Of a stretch of 64,000 bases of DNA, positions 12,249-32,499 are shown in pieces. The stretch covers positions 1 to 64,000 of the forward strand of contig JAIDFQ010000072.1 of the NCBI GenBank assembly GCA_029054245.1, given 5' to 3'. Within the stretch, counting starts at the first letter, position 1. Each line of letters opens with the position of its first letter. The position numbers were made by a program, and so were the translations under genes. This stretch comes from Lachnospiraceae bacterium. Its GTDB lineage: Bacteria; Bacillota; Clostridia; Lachnospirales; Lachnospiraceae. The notes beneath the pieces are model-generated. The model worked only from the letters and a program-made list of their open reading frames with translations, did no database searches and was not told the DNA's origin.

Positions 12249-12434
12249 TTTGCAAGGCTCTGGCGAAAAATCAGTAATTTCACTTGCAGAATGTAAAACC
12301 CCTAGGGAAAAATCGCCATGGATGGCGATTTTAGGAGCCACGCGGCACGGATGCCGCCAGCTCCGACCCGTACGCATTGAAACACATAAATCCATTCTGT
12401 TAGTGAAATCTGATTTGAAGACGAGACTTGCAAA
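12249..12434. repeat. 186-bp palindromic element with GGA-loop hairpins (possible RNA)
   Basis: The outer arms 12249-12293 and 12393-12434 pair imperfectly (CTTGCAAA, CTGATTT, AGTGAAAT and CATTCTG blocks match). Inside, AAAATCGCC (12309-12317) pairs with GGCGATTTT around hexaloop ATGGAT. GGAGC/GCTCC (12334-12338, 12360-12364) encloses GCGGC/GCCGC around hexaloop ACGGAT. Both loops match the ANGGAU recognised by CsrA when read on the + strand. The layout fits either a dispersed palindromic repeat or a structured RNA. An 82-codon open frame on the minus strand across it is probably an artefact. Confidence 0.6.
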
Positions 12435-29084: not shown

Positions 29085-31082
29085 TTATTTATGCTGTCGC
29101 CGGAACTGTACTGGTGTCATACCGTAAGATTTTTTAAAAAGCCTGTTAAAATGCTCTACCGTCTCATACCCCACGCCTGCTGCAATGCTTTCAACCGTCT
29201 GATTCGTCTCTCTAAGCATGGCTCTTGCTTTCTTCATCCTCGCCTTTTTGACCGCCTCCTGGAACGTTGCTCCGGTATGCTCTTTAATGTATTTAGAAAG
29301 ATATGGACTGGAAAGGTGGAAATTCTCGGAAAGGTTCTCTAATGTCACATCTTTATAATGGTTCTGCACATAACGCATAATATCCACGATCCGCTCTTCC
29401 CTTCCTTCTCTCACATTCTCTCCCCGCGCGGTCTTGTTCCCTGCAGAAACCAGTGCAGCAACAGAACTTTTAATGATATCTTCATCGATTCCCACTCCCC
29501 AATACATTTTTCCGTTGCATAGAATCCCCACATACGCAGCGGCCTTTGACGAAGATCCTCTTGACACGGCATGCTCCTCATAGACTGACAATTCATAGCT
29601 GATACCAAAATAAAGCTTGATCGCATTGCTGACCGCATCCAATCTGCCGTTTCCCGACGTCTCTATCACTCTACGCTCTTTGTTCTGTTCAATGGTCACC
29701 TCTGCAATAATTCCATCCTCCACTTGTCTGAAATGGCATTCAGGAATATCAAAGATCTCCCTCTGATTAATGTAATGATCCTCAAAAATCCGATAAATGT
29801 CTTCCGGCAAAAGCTCCTTATGCCTCTGATCGGAAATTCCTTTCATCAGATATCCCACTTCTTCCTTCATCTTATCCGGCAGGCCTATACCAAAATTTTG
29901 TTTTAAAATAAATGCAATGCCGCCCTTTCCTGACTGGCTGTTGATTCGGATCACATCAGATTCATATTCTCTTCCTAAATCTTCCGGGTCAATCGGAAGA
30001 TAGGGCACATCCCACCGTTTTCCGCTCTTTCCGGCAGCACGCCATGCCATCCCTTTAGAAATGGCATCCTGATGTGAACCTGAAAAAGCTGTAAAAACAA
30101 GATCCCCTGCATAGGGTGTCCTTTCATAGACCTTCATTCCTGTAAGCAGTTCATAAGTTTCCCTCACTTTGCTGATTTCTGTAAAGTCAAGTCCTGAATC
30201 CACGCCATGACATACCATATTCATCGCCAAGGTAACTACATCCACATTGCCAGTCCTCTCGCCGTTTCCAAAAAGCGTCCCTTCCACGCGGTCAGCACCT
30301 GCCAGAACGCCAAACTCCGCATCACTTATACCACACCCTCTGTCATTGTGTGGATGTACGCTCAGTATCACTGCATCTCTGTATTTCAAATGTTTATGAA
30401 TATATTCAACCTGGCATGCGAACACATGAGGCATTGCAATCTGCACTGTAGTTGGGATATTGATAATCGCCTTGCAGTTTTCGTCCGGCTGCCACACATC
30501 AAGCACTGCATTACAAACCTCCACCGCATAATCGACTTCCGTTCCCGGAAAGCTCTCCGGACTATATTCAAAGATATAATTTCCTTCTGTTTCCTCTGCA
30601 ATCTCCCGAAGCAGCTTTGCCCCGTCCACAGCCAGCTGCTTTACTTCTTCCTTCGATTTTTTAAATACCTGCTCTCTTTGTGCCACAGAAGTAGAATTAT
30701 ACAAATGCACCACCGCCGAAGGAGCACCCTCCAAAGCCTCAAAAGTTTTTCGGATGATATGTTCCCTTGCCTGCGTCAGAACCTGAATGGTCACATCTTC
30801 CGGTATCATCTTTCGTTCTATAAGCGCCCTCACAAATTGATATTCCGTATCAGATGCTGCTGGAAATCCCACTTCGATTTCCTTAAATCCAATCCGCACA
30901 AGCATCCTAAAAAACGCCAGCTTCTCCTCAAGACCCATAGGCTCTATAAGCGCCTGATTTCCATCCCTTAAATCCACACTGCACCAGATAGGCGGTGCGT
31001 CAATCGTATCTTTCTTCACCCAGTCATAGGTCACCTCGGGGGGCATAAAATAAGATTTTCCATACTTTTCTGCTGCATTCAT
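29085..31082 (-). CDS. leuA: 2-Isopropylmalate synthase fused to an AraC-type DNA-binding domain
   Basis: 665 aa. Residues 1 to about 545 are a complete class of leucine-pathway enzyme condensing acetyl-CoA and 2-oxoisovalerate: catalytic [10 protein letters not shown] near 37-46, metal HPHNDRG near 245, NGERTGNVD near 275, and the C-terminal leucine-sensing LeuA domain (about 430-545) ending ALVSAGNK. Instead of stopping there, the frame runs through a short charged linker into a full AraC/XylS double helix-turn-helix (563-665: [20 protein letters not shown] and [20 protein letters not shown]). No frameshift is seen. ATG at 31082 has GGAGGAA upstream. It likely synthesises isopropylmalate and may directly control transcription in response to leucine. 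No other leucine genes are adjacent. Confidence 0.93.
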
Positions 31083-31109
31083 AATGATTCCTCCGTCCTT
31101 AGTTCCTCT

Positions 31110-31121
31110 TTTACATGTAAA
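31110..31121. promoter_or_regulatory. Perfect 12-bp palindrome before the LeuA-AraC gene
   Basis: TTTACATGTAAA lies 28 bases upstream of the leuA-araC start codon in the predicted 5' region. It is a candidate operator for the fused AraC domain. No T-box or leucine attenuator (stacked Leu codons) is visible in 31083-31200. Confidence 0.35.
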
Positions 31122-31227
31122 CCATATGAGGCTTAAACTTTATCATAGTCAACTGCTCCTTACAAGGTGTGTTTTTAATCAATTTTATTGACTTTTTTTA
31201 TCCCATTATATTTTTTTACTGTTCCCC

Positions 31228-31256
31228 ATGACATATATCGCTTTTTTGTGTATAAT
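31228..31256 (+). promoter_or_regulatory. Promoter of the flavodiiron gene
   Basis: ATGACA (31228-31233) and TATAAT (31251-31256) with a 17-bp spacer. The roughly 88-nt leader can fold: GAGCA-GTC (31280-31287) with GAC-TGCTC (31311-31319) enclosing GCAAA/TTTGC. Confidence 0.7.
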
Positions 31257-31350
31257 GATGCTTGAGTTGGTCACTTAGAGAGCAGTCTTAGGCAAATACC
31301 GTGTTTTGCGGACATGCTCATATTAAAATACAAAAATTGGAGGTATCGAC

Positions 31351-32499
31351 ATGATTACAGATGACATTTTCTATATTGGGGTGAATGATAAGGATATCGA
31401 CCTTTTTGAAGGACAGTATATCGTGCCTAACGGCATGTCTTATAATTCCTATGTCATACTCGATGAAAAAATCGCAGTAATGGACACGGTTGACCAAAGG
31501 AAAAAAGACGAATACCTTACAGCGCTTGAAACAGCTCTAAACGGCAGACGCCCTGACTATCTGGTGGTTTCCCACGTGGAACCCGACCATGCATCCAGCA
31601 TCAAGGCATTTCTTGAAAAATATCCCGGCGTTCAGCTGGTAGGCAATGCCAAAACCTTTCCAATGCTTGCACAATACTTTGATTTAAATTTCGACTCCGC
31701 CCTTACGGTAAAAGAAGGGGATGTTCTCTCTCTTGGTAAGCATGAACTTCACTTCATCATGACCCCGATGGTCCACTGGCCGGAAGTCATGTTCACTTAT
31801 GACAGCTTCGACAAGGTTTTGTTCAGTGCAGATGCTTTTGGCAAATTCGGTTCTTTGGATACAGAAGAAGACTGGACTTGCGAAGCAAGGAGATATTACT
31901 TTAATATTGTAGGTAAATTCGGCGCACCTGTGCAGACCGTACTGAAAAAAGCTGCTGCTTTGGACATTCAGATTATTTGCCCTCTTCATGGTCCCGTATT
32001 AACGGAAAATCTGGACTACTATTTAAGCAAATACCAAATCTGGAGCAGCTATGAACCCGAATCAGAAGGCGTCTTTATTGCCTACGCTTCCCTTCATGGC
32101 AATACTGCCGGCGCCGCTCATAAATTAAAAGATATCTTAGCTGACAAAGGCTGCCCCAAAATTACTATCGCCGACCTTGCAAGGGTTGATATGGCAGAGG
32201 CTCTGGAAGACGCTTTCCGCTACGGAAAGATCGTTCTTGCCGCTTCTTCCTACAATGGCGGCGTCATGCCCTTTATGGAAGATTTCCTGCATCATTTGAA
32301 GGGCAAAAATTATCAGAAGCGAACCGTTGCATTGATTGAGAACGGCTCTTGGGCTCCTTCTGCCAGCCGGGCCATGACCGAACTTCTTTCCCAGATGAAA
32401 GACATTTCTATGCTGGATACTTCTGTGACGATCCGCGGTGCACTGAAGGAAGAAGATGTGAAAGCACTTTCCAATCTGGCAGATGCGCTCTTAAGGTAG
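31351..32499 (+). CDS. FprA-type flavodiiron protein
   Basis: 382-aa cytosolic protein combining an N-terminal metallo-beta-lactamase-like diiron domain (1-250) and a C-terminal flavodoxin domain (from about 253, VFIAYASLHGNTAGAAHKL). Diiron ligands are visible: HVEPDHAS near 80, MVHWPEVM near 146, SADAFG near 164 and CPLHGPV near 225. Such proteins reduce O2 to water or NO to N2O, protecting anaerobes. It lacks the rubredoxin or flavin-reductase extensions of larger forms. GGAGG precedes ATG 31351. It is monocistronic behind its own promoter. Confidence 0.92.
   Translation: MITDDIFYIGVNDKDIDLFEGQYIVPNGMSYNSYVILDEKIAVMDTVDQRKKDEYLTALETALNGRRPDYLVVSHVEPDHASSIKAFLEKYPGVQLVGNAKTFPMLAQYFDLNFDSALTVKEGDVLSLGKHELHFIMTPMVHWPEVMFTYDSFDKVLFSADAFGKFGSLDTEEDWTCEARRYYFNIVGKFGAPVQTVLKKAAALDIQIICPLHGPVLTENLDYYLSKYQIWSSYEPESEGVFIAYASLHGNTAGAAHKLKDILADKGCPKITIADLARVDMAEALEDAFRYGKIVLAASSYNGGVMPFMEDFLHHLKGKNYQKRTVALIENGSWAPSASRAMTELLSQMKDISMLDTSVTIRGALKEEDVKALSNLADALLR

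Follow-up and report, generated by a model that had tools for sequence, protein, structure and literature searches.

A 2-isopropylmalate synthase (LeuA) that ends in a complete AraC-type DNA-binding domain is encoded in the window (the whole 64,000-nucleotide stretch of Lachnospiraceae DNA analyzed here), and we propose that this protein, LeuA-AraC, is both an enzyme of leucine synthesis and a regulator of genes of the same pathway. As a whole, this reading is the best explanation of the sequence patterns described below and we give it a probability of about 70%. The LeuA part would carry out 2-isopropylmalate synthesis and provide the dimer interface and leucine pocket. The AraC part would bind an element, TTAAAATAAATCAATnnAAnTGATTAAA, at the protein's own promoter and, in the genus of the window, also at the promoter of ilvN2-ilvC-leuC-leuD. 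When leucine is scarce, LeuA-AraC would most likely activate these promoters, and leucine on the LeuA domain would switch off both catalysis and activation. The preliminary description had suggested an enzyme and a transcription factor in one protein, and, at the level of sequence, conserved motifs, the helix-turn-helix (HTH) units, and a matching operator support it well.

Leucine synthesis is a textbook case in which enzyme inhibition and gene control are separate, and here a single protein of an abundant gut bacterial group appears to combine the two controls. We give even odds to the proposal in its fullest form, in which one leucine-binding event leads to enzyme inhibition and gene control through an allosteric site that drives the fused AraC domain, in a widespread Lachnospiraceae family; the operator would serve autoregulation, would have reached the ilv-leuCD promoter in one genus, and would tend to vanish with the domain.

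Domain Architecture and the Predicted Signal

The gene is a single open frame with an ATG start (table 1); read on the plus strand, the same stretch contains many stops. All Pfam matches of the protein exceed their own cut-offs and those in the tail include HTH_18 at residues 584–663 (8.3e-22) and HTH_AraC (2.5e-11). The combination of an HMGL-like barrel bearing the metal motif (HPHNDRG, residues 243–249) with a LeuA_dimer domain identifies the protein as a LeuA, and the C-terminal double HTH, with scores over the cut-offs, places its tail in the AraC/XylS family. The first reading of the sequence, that one frame holds a full LeuA and a complete AraC double HTH, is thereby confirmed by the 665-codon frame and Pfam. 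The protein scores 782.6 bits against the NCBIfam PRK03739 LeuA subfamily (cut-off of 455) and 638.5 bits against TIGR00970 (leuA_yeast), below the equivalog cut-off of 697.4. Its best solved sequence relative is LeuA of Mycobacterium tuberculosis (1sr9; E 7.6e-146, query 26–519), AraC-type domains are weaker PDB sequence matches, and a fold search with the predicted model again yielded structures of M. tuberculosis LeuA. The AlphaFold2 model (mean pLDDT of 75.7, pTM of 0.54, and catalytic stretches below 50; its use is limited to the AraC helix count) has seven helices in the tail, from 563–574 to 657–664. In the model, helix 536–554 closes the leucine domain and is followed by the linker and then the AraC part. 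No operon shared with leuBCD was seen in a survey of the neighbors of 79 loci (78 of 80 loci plus the window, many with flanks that end at contig ends), in which the commonest neighbor family occurs at 13 loci; L072 and L082 were excluded, as antisense ORFs took the place of leuA in ORF picking.

Table 1. Coordinates of leuA-araC, its encoded domains, and its presumed control region in the window
Feature	Positions	Strand	Basis
leuA-araC, 665-aa 2-isopropylmalate synthase with C-terminal AraC-type DNA-binding domain	29085..31082	minus	
HMGL-like catalytic barrel, residues 32–308, DLRDGNQ and HPHNDRG motifs	30159..30989	minus	Pfam, E 1.6e-70
IPMS_D2 post-catalytic subdomain, residues 327–394	29901..30104	minus	Pfam
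LeuA_dimer allosteric domain, residues 424–550, GNGR loop 477–480	29433..29813	minus	Pfam, 5.5e-25
Linker, residues 551–562, little conserved	29397..29432	minus	Conservation, model
AraC domain, residues 563–665, two HTH units	29088..29396	minus	Pfam, AlphaFold2 model
Operator-like element ATAAAAAAAGTCAATAAAATTGATTAAA	31174..31201	minus	PWM
Presumed -35 hexamer TTGTAA, separated from the operator core by 8 bp	31160..31165	minus	Sequence, common geometry
Presumed -10 hexamer TAAAGT, TG-extended, spaced 17 nt from the -35	31137..31142	minus	Sequence, common geometry

In the genus, LeuA-AraC should be catalytically active, provided that leucine is made, because 17 of the 28 genomes with the fusion lack another LeuA match at E ≤ 1e-100 (among them some incomplete assemblies) and every one of the 37 genus genomes has an aconitase-family match. 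That leucine is the main effector stands at somewhat better than even, an expectation drawn solely from the leucine site known in the family; we suggest leucine as the signal because the AraC tail follows the leucine domain. A less likely alternative is that the catalytic domain senses 2-ketoisovalerate, acetyl-CoA, or 2-isopropylmalate instead. There is precedent in yeast Leu3, which is controlled by 2-isopropylmalate, and the catalytic motifs are conserved, with DLRDGNQ and GNGERTGN invariant in 133 distinct fused proteins and HPHNDRG nearly so (P244 in 131 and G249 in 132). The position of the AraC part, directly after the leucine domain, argues instead for leucine, as does the GNGR loop of that domain, which is present in all 133. 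Mean pairwise identity is 81% for the catalytic part, 66% for LeuA_dimer, and 64% for the AraC domain (1500 sampled pairs).

A Putative Operator Upstream of the Fused Gene

Fused genes are preceded by the element, with the promoter next after it. At leuA-araC it spans roughly positions -71 to -44 of the promoter, directly upstream of the -35. A position weight matrix (PWM) was trained on 118 unique upstream regions of fused genes. In-sample, 112 of the 118 outscored 99% of dinucleotide shuffles; the scores of 23 unfused leuA did not exceed 2.1. A 48-bp stretch in the window (31154–31201) scores 47.0, and the next best score in the 64 kb is 1.9. The second leuA in the same genome (L002), which is unfused and 49% identical to the fused LeuA, has no operator (-20.8). 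In held-out tests, with a threshold that all 23 unfused leuA and 99% of reversed sequences failed to reach, a motif found de novo in the 55 nearest genes recovered 55 of 63 others and one found in the 34 most distant genes recovered 50 of 55. Fused genes outside of the training set were positive in 14 of 14 cases (L291–L304, scores of 11.4–48.7). A further fused gene outside of training and from another class, L340, scores 41.8, and all 24 unfused genes compared with it score -2.1 or lower.

Across all distinct rows, scores of 10 or more were found for 125 of 133 fused genes, the one contig-truncated fused gene, both split genes, and 1 of 43 unfused genes, in a comparison that ignores kinship. 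The sole unfused positive is weak (L283, 10.9), and one additional unfused row had too little upstream sequence. Some PWM misses have evident features: in L021, the element is present beyond its T-box, and L042 and L078 have just 110 and 124 bp upstream. Among genes encoding an intact HTH, the leuA site is displaced or degenerate in L070 (genome G515) and weak in L102. A search of the window's own genome with the exact long operator pattern gave no match because the window's site differs from the consensus. AraC/XylS binding sites are made up of direct repeats adjacent to the -35. The element has this position, and its 22-bp direct-repeat signal (0.168) is below its inverted-repeat signal (0.239), which makes it more a palindrome than a repeat. 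These patterns indicate that LeuA-AraC very probably binds its own promoter. The operator-like element just upstream of the promoter of the fused gene is new here.

Position and knowledge of the family make it fairly likely that the protein is an activator rather than a repressor. AraC-type activators have sites directly upstream of the -35, and activation is suggested because the element is located there too, like AraC's own activating sites. It is unlikely that leucine-bound LeuA-AraC is instead a repressor or corepressor that uses the same element to block RNA polymerase when leucine is plentiful. Three observations are in keeping with repression. In the window, a 10-of-12 match to a sigma-70 promoter (31234–31205, minus strand) lies directly upstream of the operator; if this promoter is used, the operator would overlap its start and binding would repress. 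In 18 of 125 fused genes, a second operator-like copy, matching AAAAAAAGACAAn(3-6)TTGAT with up to three changes, follows the -10 at a distance of 65–79 nt from where the first copy starts (shuffled rate of 0.7%); these copies may reflect repression or looping, and most are in L013–L035. At the ilv promoter, the -35 is close to consensus, and an activator may be unneeded. Against repression, the element is upstream of the -35, the position familiar from AraC-family activators, and its spacing is steady: in 105 of 122 sites, its TCAA and the TG of the extended -10 are 45–46 nt apart. Inspection by eye of the sequences of other relatives revealed no upstream promoter of comparable quality. In 58 of the 81 sites that have a TTG, the -35 and -10 are 17 nt apart.

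A Second Predicted Target in the Genus

The element recurs at a branched-chain operon of the genus. In genome G000, it is located between ilvN1 and ilvN2 (C38:361460) and precedes ilvN2-ilvC-leuC-leuD by 93 bp; the TTGACT/TAAAAT promoter there has the corresponding geometry. The PWM was never trained on ilv-leu regions, and in 22 of 24 genus genomes with an intact HTH it scores at least 9.9 at ilvN2; a further genome, G508, is without the region. The sites of G505 and G515, with a 1-bp change in spacing, were missed by the ungapped PWM and caught by a 13-mer test (up to three mismatches). In the latter test, the site was found in 24 of 24 genomes with an intact HTH, 0 of 3 with a wrecked HTH, and 3 of 9 with no detected fusion (Fisher P = 2.3e-6, kinship ignored). 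Because the 13-mer has by itself a high chance rate (0 to 0.47 per shuffled region), position and promoter context carry this result. By the PWM, the nine genomes with no detected fusion score 19.2 (G511), 6.3 (G516), and 3.7 or lower (all others). A genus-wide search for the pattern, with up to one mismatch, returned only the ilv site, in 15 genomes that include G511 and G516. Within ilv-leu regions of the genus, further places with scores of 10 or more are in G495, G497 (end of leuD), and G509 (before a MetH-like gene). In L234 (6756–12051), the ilv-leu cluster opens with an 854-aa protein that is MetH-like by eye. The cluster also contains a pair of ilvN-like genes, of which the second has a promoter of its own.

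Conversely, in 24 distant genomes with a fused or split gene, only 1 of 40 regions surrounding leuC or ilvC has an element scoring at least 10, about 2 kb before ilvN2; plain control regions have none (0 of 20 from 12 genomes). A regulon beyond leuA is thus predicted at the level of the genus only, and the shared, older target would be leuA itself. The first reading had proposed to look for an operator shared by neighboring branched-chain operons; such an element is seen at ilvN2-ilvC-leuC-leuD in the genus but hardly at all in the regions from distant genomes.

The Putative Operator Follows the HTH through Losses, Splits, and Decay

Fused proteins cluster on a quick 180-row tree, with nine changes of fused/unfused label, of which six are forced by well-supported branches; none of 500 label shuffles was as low. 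Unfused rows nested inside the fused cluster are read as losses, several of them with moderately supported placements and long branches. In six of these nested leuA (L271, L272, L275, L276, L278, and L279), the element is absent (scores of -10.8 to -27.3) and no AraC tail was found in the stretch around each gene. At two other loci, L274 (1222–1566) and L281 (1192–1509), leuA and araC ORFs adjoin in different frames, their border coincides with the domain border, and the araC ORFs share 57% and 47% identity with the tail. The element is kept at both (37.9 and 20.6). These splits may reflect real fission, a programmed frameshift, or an assembly error.

Three tree sisters, L067, L068, and L083, have decayed tails and count as one event because of this relationship. 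Of 37 key HTH positions, 14, 18, and 17 are changed, respectively, several to acidic residues, and the catalytic part is normal; the next worst of 119 compared proteins has four changes. None of the three has the element at leuA, and in their genomes (G522, G519, and G520) ilvN2 also lacks it and still has its promoter. The operator thus appears to track the HTH through losses and splits, in associations computed with kinship ignored.

Such tracking makes it very improbable that a different regulator binds the element and that the AraC tail has another role or none. A different regulator would account for the ilv site kept in three of nine genus genomes with no detected fused gene (G506, where it is decayed, G511, and G516). 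It would not be expected to lose its element whenever the tail is lost (6/6 nested) or its key residues are wrecked (3/3), nor to keep it where the tail is a separate neighboring ORF (2/2). Lineages in which the tail was lost, split, or wrecked are natural controls for LeuA-AraC as a regulator, and the predicted operator is short.

T-Box and Other RNA Leaders

No T-box or other leader was detected near leuA-araC in the window at Rfam gathering scores, nor was there any Rfam match at E ≤ 1 within 31000–31400, in agreement with the preliminary description, which saw none upstream. Its further idea, that the protein replaces a T-box, is consistent with the window and, by motif, with 87 of 125 operator-bearing fused genes; the other 38 also carry a T-box antiterminator motif. 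This motif is also found in five of the eight fused rows scored as lacking an operator, in all three genes with a wrecked HTH, in four of the six nested unfused genes, and in 20 of all 44 unfused rows. At gathering score, an Rfam T-box is present in 9 of 20 genus loci examined and in L081 and L340. At the branched-chain amino acid operon, no leader reached the gathering score in the 7 of 20 regions submitted to Rfam. T-box and operator therefore seem partly to alternate and partly to combine, and the window would be a case of operator only. A TwoAYGGAY RNA motif occurs in the window (12261–12423, plus strand) and beside the second leuA (L002:1232–1393, plus strand).

Distribution and Conservation

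We mapped the spread of the LeuA-AraC architecture in Lachnospiraceae, as the preliminary description had proposed. In a sample of 200 genomes, one per genus and including that of the window, at least 44 have a match that reaches the AraC end (query 661 or beyond), relative to at least 181 with any LeuA match at E ≤ 1e-60. In the genus of the window, 28 of 37 genomes have the fusion (the copy in G497 is broken over two contigs) and 9 have only an unfused LeuA. Beyond the family, the fusion was found in G413, G275, and G415, among 291 genomes of the class, and in another class in G794, among 398 genomes of the phylum. Named carriers among the best 80 of 309 matches include Eisenbergiella tayi, E. 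porci, and Lachnospiraceae bacterium GAM79.

An assembly error or frameshift that joins two genes is ruled out by independent full-length relatives. Relatives at 61–96% identity reach the AraC end in many assemblies, three of them in single-contig assemblies (G085, G035, and G191), and only 2 of 44 family rows (G047 and G116) have a stop within the matched stretch. A functionless chance fusion or sequencing error, which has nothing in its favor beyond the absence of a description in the portion of the literature that was searched, can be dismissed, given 133 distinct full-length proteins and near-invariant HTH residues (Y598, I599, R615, G638, H644, F645, R647, F649, T656, and P657, each identical in 115 or more of the 119 compared). 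Genes annotated plainly as "2-isopropylmalate synthase" can be regulators, a warning for annotation.

Comparison with Known Systems

Within the portion of the open-license PubMed Central literature that was searched, no description of a LeuA with an AraC tail was found, and the available text of PMC9026213 and PMC2494555 does not mention AraC. For partner domains of AraC, this literature yielded one paper, on an unrelated subject. Enzymes that double as regulators are already known; relative to this literature, LeuA with an AraC tail is a new variant. Judged from genome comparison, one protein makes leucine and appears to set the amount of machinery that is built, in many gut bacteria, and LeuA-AraC is a candidate for a ready-made leucine sensor-regulator.

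LeuA of M. tuberculosis (PDB 1sr9 and 3fig) shares the catalytic barrel, subdomain, and leucine domain, but its chain stops at the leucine domain, where LeuA-AraC adds about 100 AraC residues. Like members of the AraC/XylS family, LeuA-AraC has a complete double HTH and a predicted operator directly upstream of the -35; in contrast to them, an entire biosynthetic enzyme would serve as its sensor part. The T-box leader (RF00230) also precedes leuA in many relatives, but it is an RNA device that reads tRNA charge and is absent from the window. With an enzyme and a DNA-binding part in one chain and a predicted site in its own pathway, LeuA-AraC would belong with the trigger enzymes and enzyme-regulators, which include PutA, NadR, BirA, and Ada. 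These likewise combine enzyme and DNA-binding parts in a single polypeptide and control their own pathway. LeuA-AraC differs from them in that its enzyme catalyzes a committed, end-product-inhibited step of amino acid synthesis and its DNA-binding part is an AraC tail.
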